A stretch of DNA of 64,000 nucleotides from Humidesulfovibrio sp. (lineage in GTDB: Bacteria; Desulfobacterota; Desulfovibrionia; Desulfovibrionales; Desulfovibrionaceae), in assembly GCA_031292175.1 (NCBI GenBank), contig JARLHQ010000027.1:1-64000 (forward strand). The letters run 5' to 3'. The position numbers and the translations under genes are program-made. The notes beneath the pieces are model-generated. The model ran no database searches. It was not told where the DNA came from and saw only the letters and a program-made list of their open reading frames with translations. The stretch's first letter is position 1, and each line of letters begins with the position of its first letter. This document shows, piece after piece, positions 54,781-62,175 of this stretch.

Positions 54781-55356
54781 CTAGGCCTTGGCCACGCCAA
54801 GGAAGTTGGCCAGTAGTTTCGGGCCGTCCGGGGTCAAGATTGATTCCGGGTGGAACTGCACGCCGCTCCACGGACGGTCTGTGTAGCACATGCCCATGAC
54901 CTCGTCCTCCTTGGTCTTGGCGGTGACGCGCAGGAGCTCCGGGGCCTCGTGCGCCAGCACAATGAGCGAATGGTAGCGGCAGACCTCGAAGGGGTTGGGC
55001 AGCCCGGCGAAGATGTCCGTGCCGTCGTGCTCCACCATGCTCGTCTTGCCATGCATGATGCGGTCGGCGCGGACCACGCTGGCCCCGGCGAAATGCCCCA
55101 GGGTCTGGTGCCCCAGGCACACGCCGAGGGTCGGCACCTTGTGGTCCAGCAGCTCGAGGAACTTGAGGCAGTTGCCCGCGTTCTCCGGCCGACTGGGGCC
55201 GGGGGAGAGGCACACGCGGGAGAGACCCGCCACGAACGCGGGGTCCAGAAGCTCCGGGCGGTCGTTGCGCAGCACCACAGGCTCCGCCCCCAGTTGCTGG
55301 AAGGCCTGCACGAGGTTGAACGTGAAGGAGTCGAAGTTATCGATCAGCAAAAACAT
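54781..55356 (-). CDS. trpG: Anthranilate synthase glutaminase subunit
   Basis: Supplies ammonia from glutamine to TrpE. 191 residues: LLIDNFDSFTFNLVQ, catalytic Cys in GVCLGHQTLGH (about 80), and the His/Glu pair in VQFHPESILT (about 170). It overlaps the trpE end by 20 bases. Confidence 0.97.
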   Translation of the reverse strand: MFLLIDNFDSFTFNLVQAFQQLGAEPVVLRNDRPELLDPAFVAGLSRVCLSPGPSRPENAGNCLKFLELLDHKVPTLGVCLGHQTLGHFAGASVVRADRIMHGKTSMVEHDGTDIFAGLPNPFEVCRYHSLIVLAHEAPELLRVTAKTKEDEVMGMCYTDRPWSGVQFHPESILTPDGPKLLANFLGVAKA

Positions 55357-56749
55357 CGCCAACCCCCTTGGAGGAGAGAATCTCTTTGATGATGCGGGCC
55401 TTGTTGTTGCATTCCTGCCATTCCTTCTCCGGGTCGGAGTCGTACACCAGCCCGGCCCCGGCCTGCCAGTTGCACACGCCGTCGCGGAACCACATGCTGC
55501 GGATGGTGATGCCCGTCCCCAGATGCACCGGGCCCTTGCCCAGGCCCAGCCAGCCCATCGCGCCCGCATAGGGACCGCGCTCCTGTTTCTCCACCTGGGC
55601 GATGGTCTCCATGGCCCAGATCTTGGGTGCTCCGGAGACCGTGCCCGCCGGGAAGGTGGCCGTCAACACGTCGATGGCGTCCAGGTCCGCGCGCAGGTCG
55701 GCTTCGACGTAGGAGGTCAGGTGCATGACGTGGGAGAAACGCTCCACCTGCATGAACTTTGCGACCTCCACGCTGCCGGACTTGGCGATGCGCCCAAGGT
55801 CGTTGCGCCCCAGGTCCACGAGCATCACGTGCTCGGCGCGCTCCTTGGGGTCGGCCAAAAGCTCGCGCTCGAAGGCCATGTCCTGCGCCTCCGTGCCGCC
55901 GCGCGGCCGGGTGCCCGCGATGGGCCGGACCTCAAGCTTGCCCGCCTGGCAGTTGACCATCATCTCGGGCGAAGAGCCGAGCACCGTCTCTTCCTCGAAG
56001 CGCATGAAGAACATGAACGGCGAGGGGTTGGCCTGGCGCAGGCGGCGGTACACGCCGAAGGGCTGCCCCTTGAAGGGCGTCTGGAAGCGCACGGAGAACA
56101 CGAGCTGGATGCCCTCGCCCTCGGTGATGAGGCGCTTGGCCTCGCGCACCATCTCCATGTACTCCTCGCGCTCCGGCGTGGCCGTCGGCTCCTGGGTTTC
56201 CAGCTCAAAGGAGCCGACATCGCCGAGCCTGGCGGGCGCTGGCCCGCCGTTGTCGTCGAGCGAGAGATAGCAGCAGCGGTGGCGCAGGTGGTCGTAGAGC
56301 ACCGTCTGACCGGGCAGCACCAGGCGCACCTCGGCATCCTTCGGCGGCAAGGCCTTGAGCAGCTTTGGCTCCAGCATCCCGCCCACGCTGTAGCCCAGGT
56401 AGCCGTAAAGCGCACGGGTGAGCGCGGGCAAAGGCTCCTTGAGCGCGGGCTGCTCTATCTCCACCTGCGGGAGGAGCTTGCGCAAGCCTTCCATGAACGG
56501 CAGTCCGGCCAGGGGCTTCAAGCCCGCCAGACGTTCGTCGCGGATGTCCAGCGCGAGGTTGCCGTCCTTCTGGGTGGCGATGAGCCGGAAGTCCCAGGCG
56601 ATGAGGCTGTAGCGGCCCAGACGGCCGTCCACCTCGGCGCTTTCCAGCAGGATGCCGGGCTGGTCGCCCACCAGGCCCAGGTACAGGCTGATGGGCGTCT
56701 GCACGTCGGCCGGGAGCCACTTCCCGTAATGCTTCAAATGAATGTCCAT
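55337..56749 (-). CDS. trpE: Anthranilate synthase component I
   Basis: Commits chorismate to tryptophan. 470 residues. ILLESAEVDGRLGRYS contains the LLES motif that binds Trp for feedback inhibition (about 35). RPIAGTRPRG, GTVSGAPKIWAMETI and the terminal IRSMWFRDGV segment form the active site. ATG at 56749 follows ACGGAGGAAGC. Just upstream a terminator and a matching antiterminator use the Trp-Trp-Trp end of tyrA, evidence for control by Trp at this junction. Confidence 0.97.
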   Translation of the reverse strand: MDIHLKHYGKWLPADVQTPISLYLGLVGDQPGILLESAEVDGRLGRYSLIAWDFRLIATQKDGNLALDIRDERLAGLKPLAGLPFMEGLRKLLPQVEIEQPALKEPLPALTRALYGYLGYSVGGMLEPKLLKALPPKDAEVRLVLPGQTVLYDHLRHRCCYLSLDDNGGPAPARLGDVGSFELETQEPTATPEREEYMEMVREAKRLITEGEGIQLVFSVRFQTPFKGQPFGVYRRLRQANPSPFMFFMRFEEETVLGSSPEMMVNCQAGKLEVRPIAGTRPRGGTEAQDMAFERELLADPKERAEHVMLVDLGRNDLGRIAKSGSVEVAKFMQVERFSHVMHLTSYVEADLRADLDAIDVLTATFPAGTVSGAPKIWAMETIAQVEKQERGPYAGAMGWLGLGKGPVHLGTGITIRSMWFRDGVCNWQAGAGLVYDSDPEKEWQECNNKARIIKEILSSKGVGDVFADR

Positions 56750-56766
56750 GCTTCCTCCGTTGCGTG

Positions 56767-56847
56767 AAAAAAAACGGCCGCGCCCCACCCTGGGACGCGG
56801 CCAACACTGTACCAATCGTTTTCGCCGTCAGGCGAAAGCCGCGTCCC
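56767..56847 (-). promoter_or_regulatory. tyrA-trpE attenuator read from the end of tyrA
   Basis: Terminator: 11-bp arms 56792-56802 and 56776-56786 (one G-U), then T8 (A-run 56767-56774). Antiterminator: GGGACGCGGC (56838-56847, starting at the last base of the tyrA stop) is the exact complement of GCCGCGTCCC (56792-56801) in the terminator 5' arm. A 7-bp hairpin (TTTCGCC-TGAC-GGCGAAA, 56820-56837) bridges the two. Trp codons at 56862-56870 in tyrA are the sensing site. A ribosome at the tyrA stop would cover 56838-56847; one stalled on the Trp codons would not. Confidence 0.85.
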
Positions 56848-57641
56848 TATGCCATGTCGCGCCACCACCAGGAGGCCCTGGCGGAAAGCAGGTCGAGATC
56901 GCCCCCGGCGGCCAAGTCCAGGTAGGCCGTGAACTGGCGCACGGTCTCCAGCAGGAAGGGGTTGTCCTCGGCGATGAGCTGGAACAGCTCGCGGTCTTTC
57001 GTCAGCATCTTGCGCGCGGCTTCAAGCCTGCGCTCAAACGACGGCGTGCGGAAATTCTCGATGCCCGGGGTCTGCCGGGCGGCGGCCAGGTAGGCCACGG
57101 TGGTGATGAAGTTGAGCCCCTGCACCACGGCCATGGCGCGGTCGTGCTCCTCCGCGGTGCTGGCGAAGGTCGTGAAGCCCGCGCGGGCAAACACGTCGCT
57201 CACGGCCTCGGCGGCGCCCTCGCCCCGTCCGGGTGTTACGGCCACACGCGGCTCGAAGCCTTCCGGGATCACCGGCCCGAAAAGCGGATGCGTGCCCACC
57301 ACCGGGCCGCTGTAGGTTTCGAGCATCTGGGCCAGCGGGTTCACCTTCACGGAGCACACGTCGCAGAGGATGGCCCCCTGGGGCATGAACGGAACCAGGC
57401 GCTCGGCAACCTCGCGCGTGGCCGTCACGGGCACGGAGATGAGCACAAGATCGGCGGGGCCTTCCAGGCCGGAGAACGCGGCGCGGATGGCCTCGTCCGT
57501 GTATGGCCGGTCCAGGCTCGTCACCACGTACCCGGCCTTGTGGAAGGCGCGCACGAAGAGCGCCCCCATCTGGCCGCGAGCGCCGACTACCGCAATAGTG
57601 CGGACGGACATGCTCCTGCTCCCACGGGCGGCCATGCTCAT
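56847..57641 (-). CDS. tyrA: Prephenate dehydrogenase with Trp-Trp-Trp tail
   Basis: Makes 4-hydroxyphenylpyruvate for tyrosine. 264 residues: Rossmann start TIAVVGARGQMGALFVRAF, SVPVTATREV, GTHPLFGPVIPEGF and a helical dimer domain. No chorismate mutase or ACT domain. It starts with ATG at 57641, overlapping the aroA stop by ATGA; a Met two codons on is possible. The end, LSARASWWWRDMA, has three consecutive Trp codons four codons before the stop, positioned for the trpE attenuator. Confidence 0.95.
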   Translation of the reverse strand: MSMAARGSRSMSVRTIAVVGARGQMGALFVRAFHKAGYVVTSLDRPYTDEAIRAAFSGLEGPADLVLISVPVTATREVAERLVPFMPQGAILCDVCSVKVNPLAQMLETYSGPVVGTHPLFGPVIPEGFEPRVAVTPGRGEGAAEAVSDVFARAGFTTFASTAEEHDRAMAVVQGLNFITTVAYLAAARQTPGIENFRTPSFERRLEAARKMLTKDRELFQLIAEDNPFLLETVRQFTAYLDLAAGGDLDLLSARASWWWRDMA

Positions 57642-62011: not shown

Positions 62012-62046
62012 AAAAAAAGGGCCGCCGGCTTTCGCCTGCGGCCCTT
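62012..62046 (-). terminator. Attenuator terminator of the aromatic operon
   Basis: Minus-strand stem AAGGGCCGC-A-GGC, GAAA loop, GCC-G-GCGGCCCTT, then T7 (A-run 62012-62018). Its 5' arm CGCCTGCGGCC (plus strand 62033-62043) is the exact partner of 62097-62107 inside the leader peptide, an 11-nt antiterminator. Confidence 0.92.
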
Positions 62047-62079
62047 CCTGAAGAGGCTTTGGTTAACGTCCTGTCTCCG

Positions 62080-62175
62080 TCAACAAACCTCTCCCAGGCC
62101 GCAGGCGCGGCTAAACCAATAATACCAGTACTGGCTAAAGGAAAAGGAGGTATTGTTGGCACGGGATAGGTTCAT
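62080..62175 (-). CDS. Aromatic leader peptide of the shikimate/trp operon
   Basis: A 31-codon frame beginning MNLSRANNT and continuing SFSFSQYWYYWFSRACG; three Phe, three Tyr and two Trp in residues 11-21. Segment 1 (GCCGC, 62107-62111) can pair with segment 2 (GCGGC, 62098-62102); segment 2 with its flanks can instead pair 11 nt with the terminator 5' arm. Stalling at the Tyr/Trp codons 18-20 would cover segment 1 and free segment 2. There is no binding site, and the ATG is 8 bases past the predicted -10, so the mRNA may be nearly leaderless. Confidence 0.92.
   Translation of the reverse strand: MNLSRANNTSFSFSQYWYYWFSRACGLGEVC

Follow-up and report, generated by a model that had tools for sequence, protein, structure and literature searches.

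We found that the junction between tyrA and trpE in a Humidesulfovibrio genome very probably carries a Trp-responsive, ribosome-mediated transcription attenuator whose leader reading frame is tyrA itself. The anatomy of the junction, its conservation, covariation, and spacing, its rarity within the window (the whole 64-kb stretch of DNA that was analyzed), and its fold behavior all speak for an attenuator. No experiment has been performed, and ribosome stalling, its timing, and the response to Trp are inferred.

In the mechanism that we propose, RNA polymerase would proceed from tyrA toward trpE with the leading tyrA ribosome close behind. With ample charged tRNA-Trp, this ribosome would pass three consecutive Trp codons and cover an antiterminator arm about 20 nt past the last of them, upon which the terminator would form and transcription would end before trpE. 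When Trp is short, the ribosome would wait on the Trp codons, and the arm, left free, would pair with the terminator 5' arm while the 3' arm has yet to be synthesized, so that trpEGDCFBA would be transcribed. The initial annotation described this as tyrosine-pathway translation gating the tryptophan genes, which is accurate only in that tyrA must be translated, as the control proposed here is specific to Trp.

If this is true, the sensor of an attenuator can be the tail of a working enzyme encoded in the same operon instead of a throw-away peptide, and it sits precisely where the tyrosine and tryptophan pathways diverge. A single aromatic supraoperon would then have two-tier attenuation, the order would offer a natural series, with enzyme tails at one end and dedicated leaders at the other, that is relevant to the origin of leader peptides, and screens confined to upstream regions of operons or to short open reading frames will miss such switches.

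Anatomy of the junction and of its supraoperon

All features of the junction lie on the minus strand. The gene tyrA (prephenate dehydrogenase; 56847 to 57611, start codon assumed) ends in ASWWWRDMA, and the three tandem Trp codons TGG TGG TGG (56862 to 56870), read directly from the sequence, are the proposed sensor. They are followed by CGC GAC ATG GCA and the stop codon TAG (56849-56847), the last base of which is also the first base of the antiterminator 5' arm, GGGACGCGGC (56847-56838), an assignment supported by pairing energy and covariation. This arm is a perfect 10-nt complement of GCCGCGTCCC (56801-56792), which belongs to the 5' arm of a terminator hairpin (56775 to 56803, supported by the terminator scan and by covariation) and thus doubles as the antiterminator 3' arm. 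The sequence and its local fold place a 7-bp hairpin (56820 to 56837) within the antiterminator, between its two arms. The terminator ends in a run of eight T residues (56767 to 56774), and a spacer of 17 nt leads from there to the trpE ATG (56749-56747), with GGAGG (56754 to 56758) as the likely ribosome-binding site. The gene trpE (55337 to 56749, from the open reading frame list and NCBIfam) would be the first gated gene.

At this locus alone, the duplex between antiterminator and terminator arm scored z = 3.1 (p = 0.015, 200 dinucleotide shuffles), and the local fold of the junction had z = -3.19. The tail with its three Trp codons, the 10-nt complement, the 7-bp hairpin between the partners, and the terminator with its eight T residues had all been described in the initial annotation and are exact to the base. 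The inner hairpin does lie between the partners, but its sequence is common to the genus only and not to the order. At gathering score, no Rfam covariance model matched the junction site; searching 56700-56960 up to an E value of 10 returned seven matches, all below gathering score, with no trp leader, T-box, or riboswitch among them.

The junction lies inside a minus-strand supraoperon that encodes a DhnA-type aldolase (aroA', start taken as 61942), 3-dehydroquinate synthase II, pheA, aroA, tyrA, trpE-trpG-trpD-trpC-trpF, and trpB-trpA; gene families up to trpF were assigned from NCBIfam matches, and trpB and trpA were named by reading the open reading frame sequences. A second attenuator, of the classical kind, was found at the operon head, with a leader peptide recognized as a short aromatic-rich frame, MNLSRANNTSFSFSQYWYYWFSRACGLGEVC (62080 to 62175, minus strand), that contains a run of Phe, Tyr, and Trp codons, and with a terminator (62015 to 62048, minus strand) whose upstream partner scored z = 4.46 (p = 0.005). 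Such a frame precedes the aldolase gene in 29 of the 30 aldolase loci read, some of which are second aldolase copies, under a mechanically applied rule of at least 5 aromatic residues in 11. With the head leader and the junction attenuator in one operon, control therefore seems to be two-tiered, a general aromatic attenuator at the head and a Trp-only one at the border between tyrA and trpE. The head leader would place the common part and the Phe/Tyr part under general aromatic control, and the trp part would have an added gate that answers to Trp alone. In Desulfovibrio vulgaris, an attenuator ahead of aroA' at the head of the supraoperon was predicted by Song et al. 2005 (PMC1173090), as far as the available part of that paper tells.

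Partnered terminators are rare in the window. The scan found 10 strong intrinsic terminators, and when the 52 nt upstream of each were paired with its 5' arm and loop (200 dinucleotide shuffles), a partner at p <= 0.05 emerged for 2 of the 10, namely, the tyrA-trpE junction (p = 0.015) and the head of the same operon (p = 0.005).

Conservation, spacing, and covariation across the order

The window belongs to an order of mostly sulfate-reducing bacteria. A family search gave a TyrA match in 262 of 288 genomes, and the loci read are a part of the matches listed. After relatives from outside the order (L050-L065) had been dropped, 170 loci of TyrA relatives yielded 147 distinct junctions, those identical over 160 nt being counted once. 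Genera are represented by group codes, and genus names were inferred from the nearest named TyrA relatives, which for the window are a "Desulfovibrio sp." metagenome-assembled genome (MAG; 85% identity) and Humidesulfovibrio MAGs (84, 76, and 72%).

In the stretch read, trpE lies downstream of tyrA in 128 of the 147 junctions; the two genes are 60 nt or more apart in 110 of these and closer in 18. A terminator between the Trp run and trpE is present in 92 of the 110 junctions with the wider gap and nowhere else. The window's family contributes 13 genera to these 92 attenuator junctions; the rest come from families f2-f6 of the order and from two named records. The element is present in all 14 junctions of the window's own Humidesulfovibrio-like genus, in 27 of the 29 read from a Pseudodesulfovibrio-like genus, and in 26 of 27 across the remaining eleven genera of the family that have it. 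Five other families have it in 23 of 25 junctions, and the named loci that lack a group code have it in 2 of 5. Loci of the culturable relatives Pseudodesulfovibrio pelocollis SB368 (L043) and Salidesulfovibrio brasiliensis JCM 12178 (L046) are among those with the element. Three or four consecutive Trp codons are found in 91 of the 92, the exception being WWF with two. The expectation that Trp codons and complementarity are kept where tyrA and trpE adjoin was thus borne out at the sequence level in most clades. Since WWW also occurs in 28 of the 55 junctions without attenuator (two Trp in 25, fewer in two), Trp conservation alone is not evidence for a sensor, and a tree-corrected test of attenuator against WWW yielded only 3 independent supported pairs.

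By our rule, 18 of the 110 wide-gap junctions lack a terminator, and at least three of them (L023, L073, and L078) show a hairpin by eye. In five junctions, L083, L092, and L100 of one genus and L111 and L136 of another, a short tail follows WWWR at the end of tyrA and trpE lies 95-253 nt further on, but no terminator with a T run was found by rule; these loci may have another kind of switch or may have lost theirs recently.

A separate feature was observed in the Pseudodesulfovibrio-like genus (L015-L030 and others). Just past the terminator of the tyrA tail, 24 loci have an ATG, three to four codons, and a TGA followed by AAG or AGG. No SECIS-like hairpin, as a selenoprotein would suggest, was found after the TGA in the three loci folded. 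Read through the TGA, 20 of the 24 run on as EN.KK.KGW.VIPRP, giving a conserved micro-ORF of about 25 residues between attenuator and trpE (for example, L019:1315-1389, minus strand).

To locate the antiterminator arm, the whole interval from the Trp codons to the terminator was searched for the segment that pairs with the terminator arm at the best duplex energy. Across the 92 loci, the median distance from the start of the first Trp codon to the start of the arm is 25 nt (first paired base 26; interquartile range [IQR] 23-26, standard deviation [SD] 3.3, range 16-31). Counted from the end of the stop codon, the start ranges from -30 to +7 (SD 9.2), and in shuffled sequences the SD of the arm start averaged 12.9 with a minimum of 11.3 over 60 shuffle sets. 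The first paired nucleotide falls at a median of 20 nt after the first nucleotide of the last Trp codon (IQR 18-21, range 11-26). Arm position does not follow stop position (r = 0.08), and the place of the stop varies by 12 codons. It is thus the Trp codons, and not the stop, that fix where the arm lies, as a mechanism based on a stalled ribosome demands, and the length of the tyrA tail varies around the arm. A ribosome at the stop had been held to cover the arm and one waiting at the Trp codons to free it; the tie to the Trp codons stands, but the stop codon is not the key, given that the first 9 nt of the arm lie wholly within the tyrA coding sequence in 43 of the 92 loci (they overlap the stop in 26 and lie past it in 23).

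Pairing between each arm and its own terminator also exceeded chance. With the terminator loop included and duplex energies used, the mean z against shuffles was 2.97, and 77 of 92 loci reached p <= 0.05 (45 reached p <= 0.01), leaving 15 individually not significant; a cruder first shuffle test on stem arms without the loop gave p < 0.05 in only 47 of 92. When arms were swapped among 48 distinct terminator cores, the own arm outperformed the mean of the swapped arms in 47, with a median rank of 4 of 48.

Covarying stems, a further expectation for this junction, were found in both helices in an alignment of 38 junctions from two genera. Standard pairs make up 96.6% of cells in the antiterminator helix, and 5 of its 10 pairs have changed on both sides. 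Its covariation score is 0.248 compared with 0.135 in shuffled alignments, reached by 0 of 500, and drops to 0.100 or less when the helix is slid. The terminator helix is 94.0% paired and scores 0.216 versus 0.141, again reached by 0 of 500 shuffles. Further pair types were not raised in either helix (487 of 500 shuffles reach the count for the antiterminator and 443 for the terminator), nor was the number of terminator pairs with two-sided changes (reached by 86 of 500). Because the terminator 5' arm belongs to both helices, the covariation is three-way. The main covarying switch (columns 35, 36, 91, 92, and 106) divides the two genera and may represent only one or two events.

Folding of the nascent RNA and competing explanations

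Equilibrium folding by ribosome position was tried as a model of the switch and rejected. In the complete RNA, the terminator is preferred even with the arm free in 70 of 92 loci, and in 84 of 92 with a ribosome at the first Trp codon, so the completed terminator wins and no switch is seen; the equilibrium fold of Escherichia coli trpL prefers the terminator as well. As the terminator wins once it is complete, the switch must be kinetic. We then modeled the nascent RNA before the terminator 3' arm exists, with the downstream edge of the ribosome at 13 nt, where it is generally placed. While the A site is occupied by any one of the first three codons, the terminator 5' arm is predicted to be held by the antiterminator with a mean probability of 0.69; this probability is 0.13 once the A site has reached the seventh codon after the first Trp codon. 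For the window locus, holding falls from 0.82 to 0.0 at the GCA codon, and the same model takes E. coli trpL from 0.71 to 0.01 at its stop. The proposal that the two states could be told apart by folding thus holds for nascent RNA, which switches like E. coli trpL, but not for equilibrium folds. In this model, the mechanism is kinetic and of the trpL type; the stalling itself and the response to Trp are inferred.

Three other explanations have to be weighed against a Trp-sensing attenuator. The strength of the terminator would suit an ordinary one that ends the tyrA transcript, with trpE transcribed from a promoter of its own and the upstream complement present by chance. We regard this as hardly credible, as only 17 nt separate the eight T residues from the trpE ATG, no sigma-70-like promoter was found in a scan of 56600-57200 in the window, and the arm shows covariation, keeps a fixed position, and does better than swapped partners, while 8 of the 10 window terminators lack any such partner at p <= 0.05. 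Another possibility is that translation starts in frame within tyrA, ahead of WWW, and that the resulting short leader peptide acts as the sensor in place of full-length tyrA. An in-frame GTG is present 24 codons before WWW in 36 of the 92 loci and an ATG at 20 codons in 29, and a Shine-Dalgarno-like 4-mer lies ahead of some in-frame start in 34. No single start position is common to more than 36 loci, however, and the GTG of the window is the Val codon of an ETVRQ stretch with a GGAG only 3 nt away, which makes an internal start very improbable in our view.

The third explanation is that WWW is kept for the sake of the TyrA protein and that the RNA switch senses some other input, such as general tyrA translation or a ligand. 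The attenuator-less junctions with WWW, in some of which no trpE was found behind tyrA, are in its favor, and so is the predicted structure of the enzyme (mean pLDDT 92.5), in which WWW is part of the final helix (residues 239-253; confidence drops toward the end). Matches to NCBIfam prephenate dehydrogenase models, which score under their curated cutoffs, cover residues 3-229 of 254 at the most, and the T-protein structure 2pv7 in the PDB matches residues 3-226; with the NCBIfam match ending by residue 229, the tail lies outside the described family core. WW is present in all eight junctions of one genus in which tyrA and trpE overlap and no attenuator exists. Since WWW persists in some TyrA proteins without an attenuator, a role in the protein beside the regulatory one is likely. 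That this role is the only one we nevertheless consider improbable, because the distance of the arm is nearly fixed from the Trp codons and not from the stop, and because distant trpE genes carry short WW(W)R leader frames with near-equal spacing where no TyrA protein is made. One locus (L046) was left out of the protein alignment, as the range given contained stops.

Known systems and the possible origin of dedicated leaders

Textbook trp attenuators use a tiny dedicated leader peptide as their sensor. Like the junction, E. coli trpL (b1265, NC_000913.3) has tandem Trp codons with an R codon directly after them, an antiterminator and a terminator of which only one can form, a T run, and a place upstream of trpE. 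Analyzed with the same code, its arm starts 19 nt after the first and 17 nt after the last of two Trp codons, and its fold behavior is similar. It differs in being a 14-residue dedicated leader at the start of its operon, whereas the codons of the junction form the end of an enzyme gene inside an operon, and the antiterminator arm of the junction may lie in enzyme coding sequence. Measured against the features of a trpL-type attenuator, the junction has Trp codons in tandem, within a frame that is translated and ahead of trp genes, a spacing from these codons to the arm that fits a stalled ribosome, and an antiterminator and intrinsic terminator that exclude each other by sequence and in the fold model. 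It does not have a short dedicated leader peptide, as the frame is tyrA; a short frame is seen in those genera whose trpE lies apart from tyrA. The junction works like a trp attenuator but fails this one defining feature.

Attenuation at rph-pyrE of E. coli involves rph, the gene for RNase PH, as the upstream gene. As proposed for tyrA-trpE, translation near the end of the upstream gene controls an attenuator before the next gene (PMC2784333, seen in part, which cites Bonekamp 1984), but the response is to the supply of uracil or UTP, and the portion of that source at hand mentions neither amino acid sensor codons nor an antiterminator hairpin. In the WWW motif of Chlamydia YtgCR, three Trp codons in a real protein likewise couple Trp supply to transcription and affect trp genes; according to the accessible sections of PMC7755916, the sign in cis is opposite, with starvation terminating ytgR and the trp genes being relieved in trans through loss of the repressor. 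The aroA' attenuator of D. vulgaris lies in the same supraoperon and was likewise inferred from sequence, but it is situated at the operon head, and the available part of PMC1173090 does not mention an attenuator between tyrA and trpE. In the open literature, we found no account of a Trp attenuator located at the tyrA end; most subscription journals were not covered, and its absence from print is not established.

Published expression data offer a hint at most. In RNA-seq of Desulfovibrio hydrothermalis (PMC4162548), the portion of the table available lists trpE, trpG, and trpD as down by ~2.6-2.7 log2 at 10 versus 0.1 MPa, and aroA', aroB', pheA, aroA, and tyrA have no entry for this comparison, only for 26 versus 0.1 MPa; trpC and trpF also lack an entry at 10 versus 0.1 MPa. 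This pattern would fit a regulated border at tyrA-trpE, but it does not come from a Trp experiment, and the element is unconfirmed in that strain. In D. vulgaris biofilms (PMC3431258, available in part), 8 of 12 operon genes are down, and no border is visible because these include the chorismate mutase gene upstream of tyrA.

In some genera, tyrA was read without trpE behind it. We searched 22 genomes of these genera and found trpE in 20; it lies away from tyrA wherever both places are listed (for G097 there is no listed place of tyrA). A short WW-containing frame precedes trpE in all 20, with a terminator and an arm starting 21-25 nt after the first Trp codon in 19 (no shuffle control); the remaining locus, L188, with an arm start of 10, is doubtful. 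The median spacing is 24 in dedicated leaders and 25 in tyrA tails. Upstream of trpE in L189-L207, the frames appear as dedicated trp leaders with WW(W)R.

A tree of TyrA was built with the tail removed from 85 rows, at most four per genus code and none shorter than 200 residues. Except for g25, those genera whose trpE lies elsewhere group in one clade (support 93), nested in a clade (support 99) with the sister genera g24 and g12. All 15 tree rows of other families show the tail attenuator; two attenuator-less junctions of family f4 (L178 and L180) are not in the tree. The rooting is soft, because the outgroup rows do not fall on one side of a branch and 7 of 15 are on the wrong side. The likeliest order of events is that the enzyme tail came first and the dedicated leader later.

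Our results lead us to speculate, tentatively and with the balance slightly against it, that already at the base of the order the C-terminal extension of TyrA served both as protein tail and as Trp sensor and has done so ever since, some of its residues (the GG(x)VR tail of several genera) being imposed by RNA pairing, and that in one nested clade the trp genes moved away and the tail was copied as a dedicated trpL leader. A ribosome waiting on WWW would, in the same scenario, also delay the completion of TyrA and thereby spare chorismate for Trp. The likeness in GG-VR could possibly have arisen by convergence forced by the RNA arm, because the arm itself encodes these residues. Among the 20 dedicated leaders, the Trp run is WWW in 14 and WW in six, and a GG(D)VR tail is present in 12; typical examples are MNVFSNTISNSFKGWWWRIQLRGGDVRA and MLNAFSLTFSAYRWWWRVVDVKGGVRPA, and the TyrA tails of the two sister genera read WWWRENSNTGGVRQ (g24, in part) and WWWRSHTERGGVRPS (g12).
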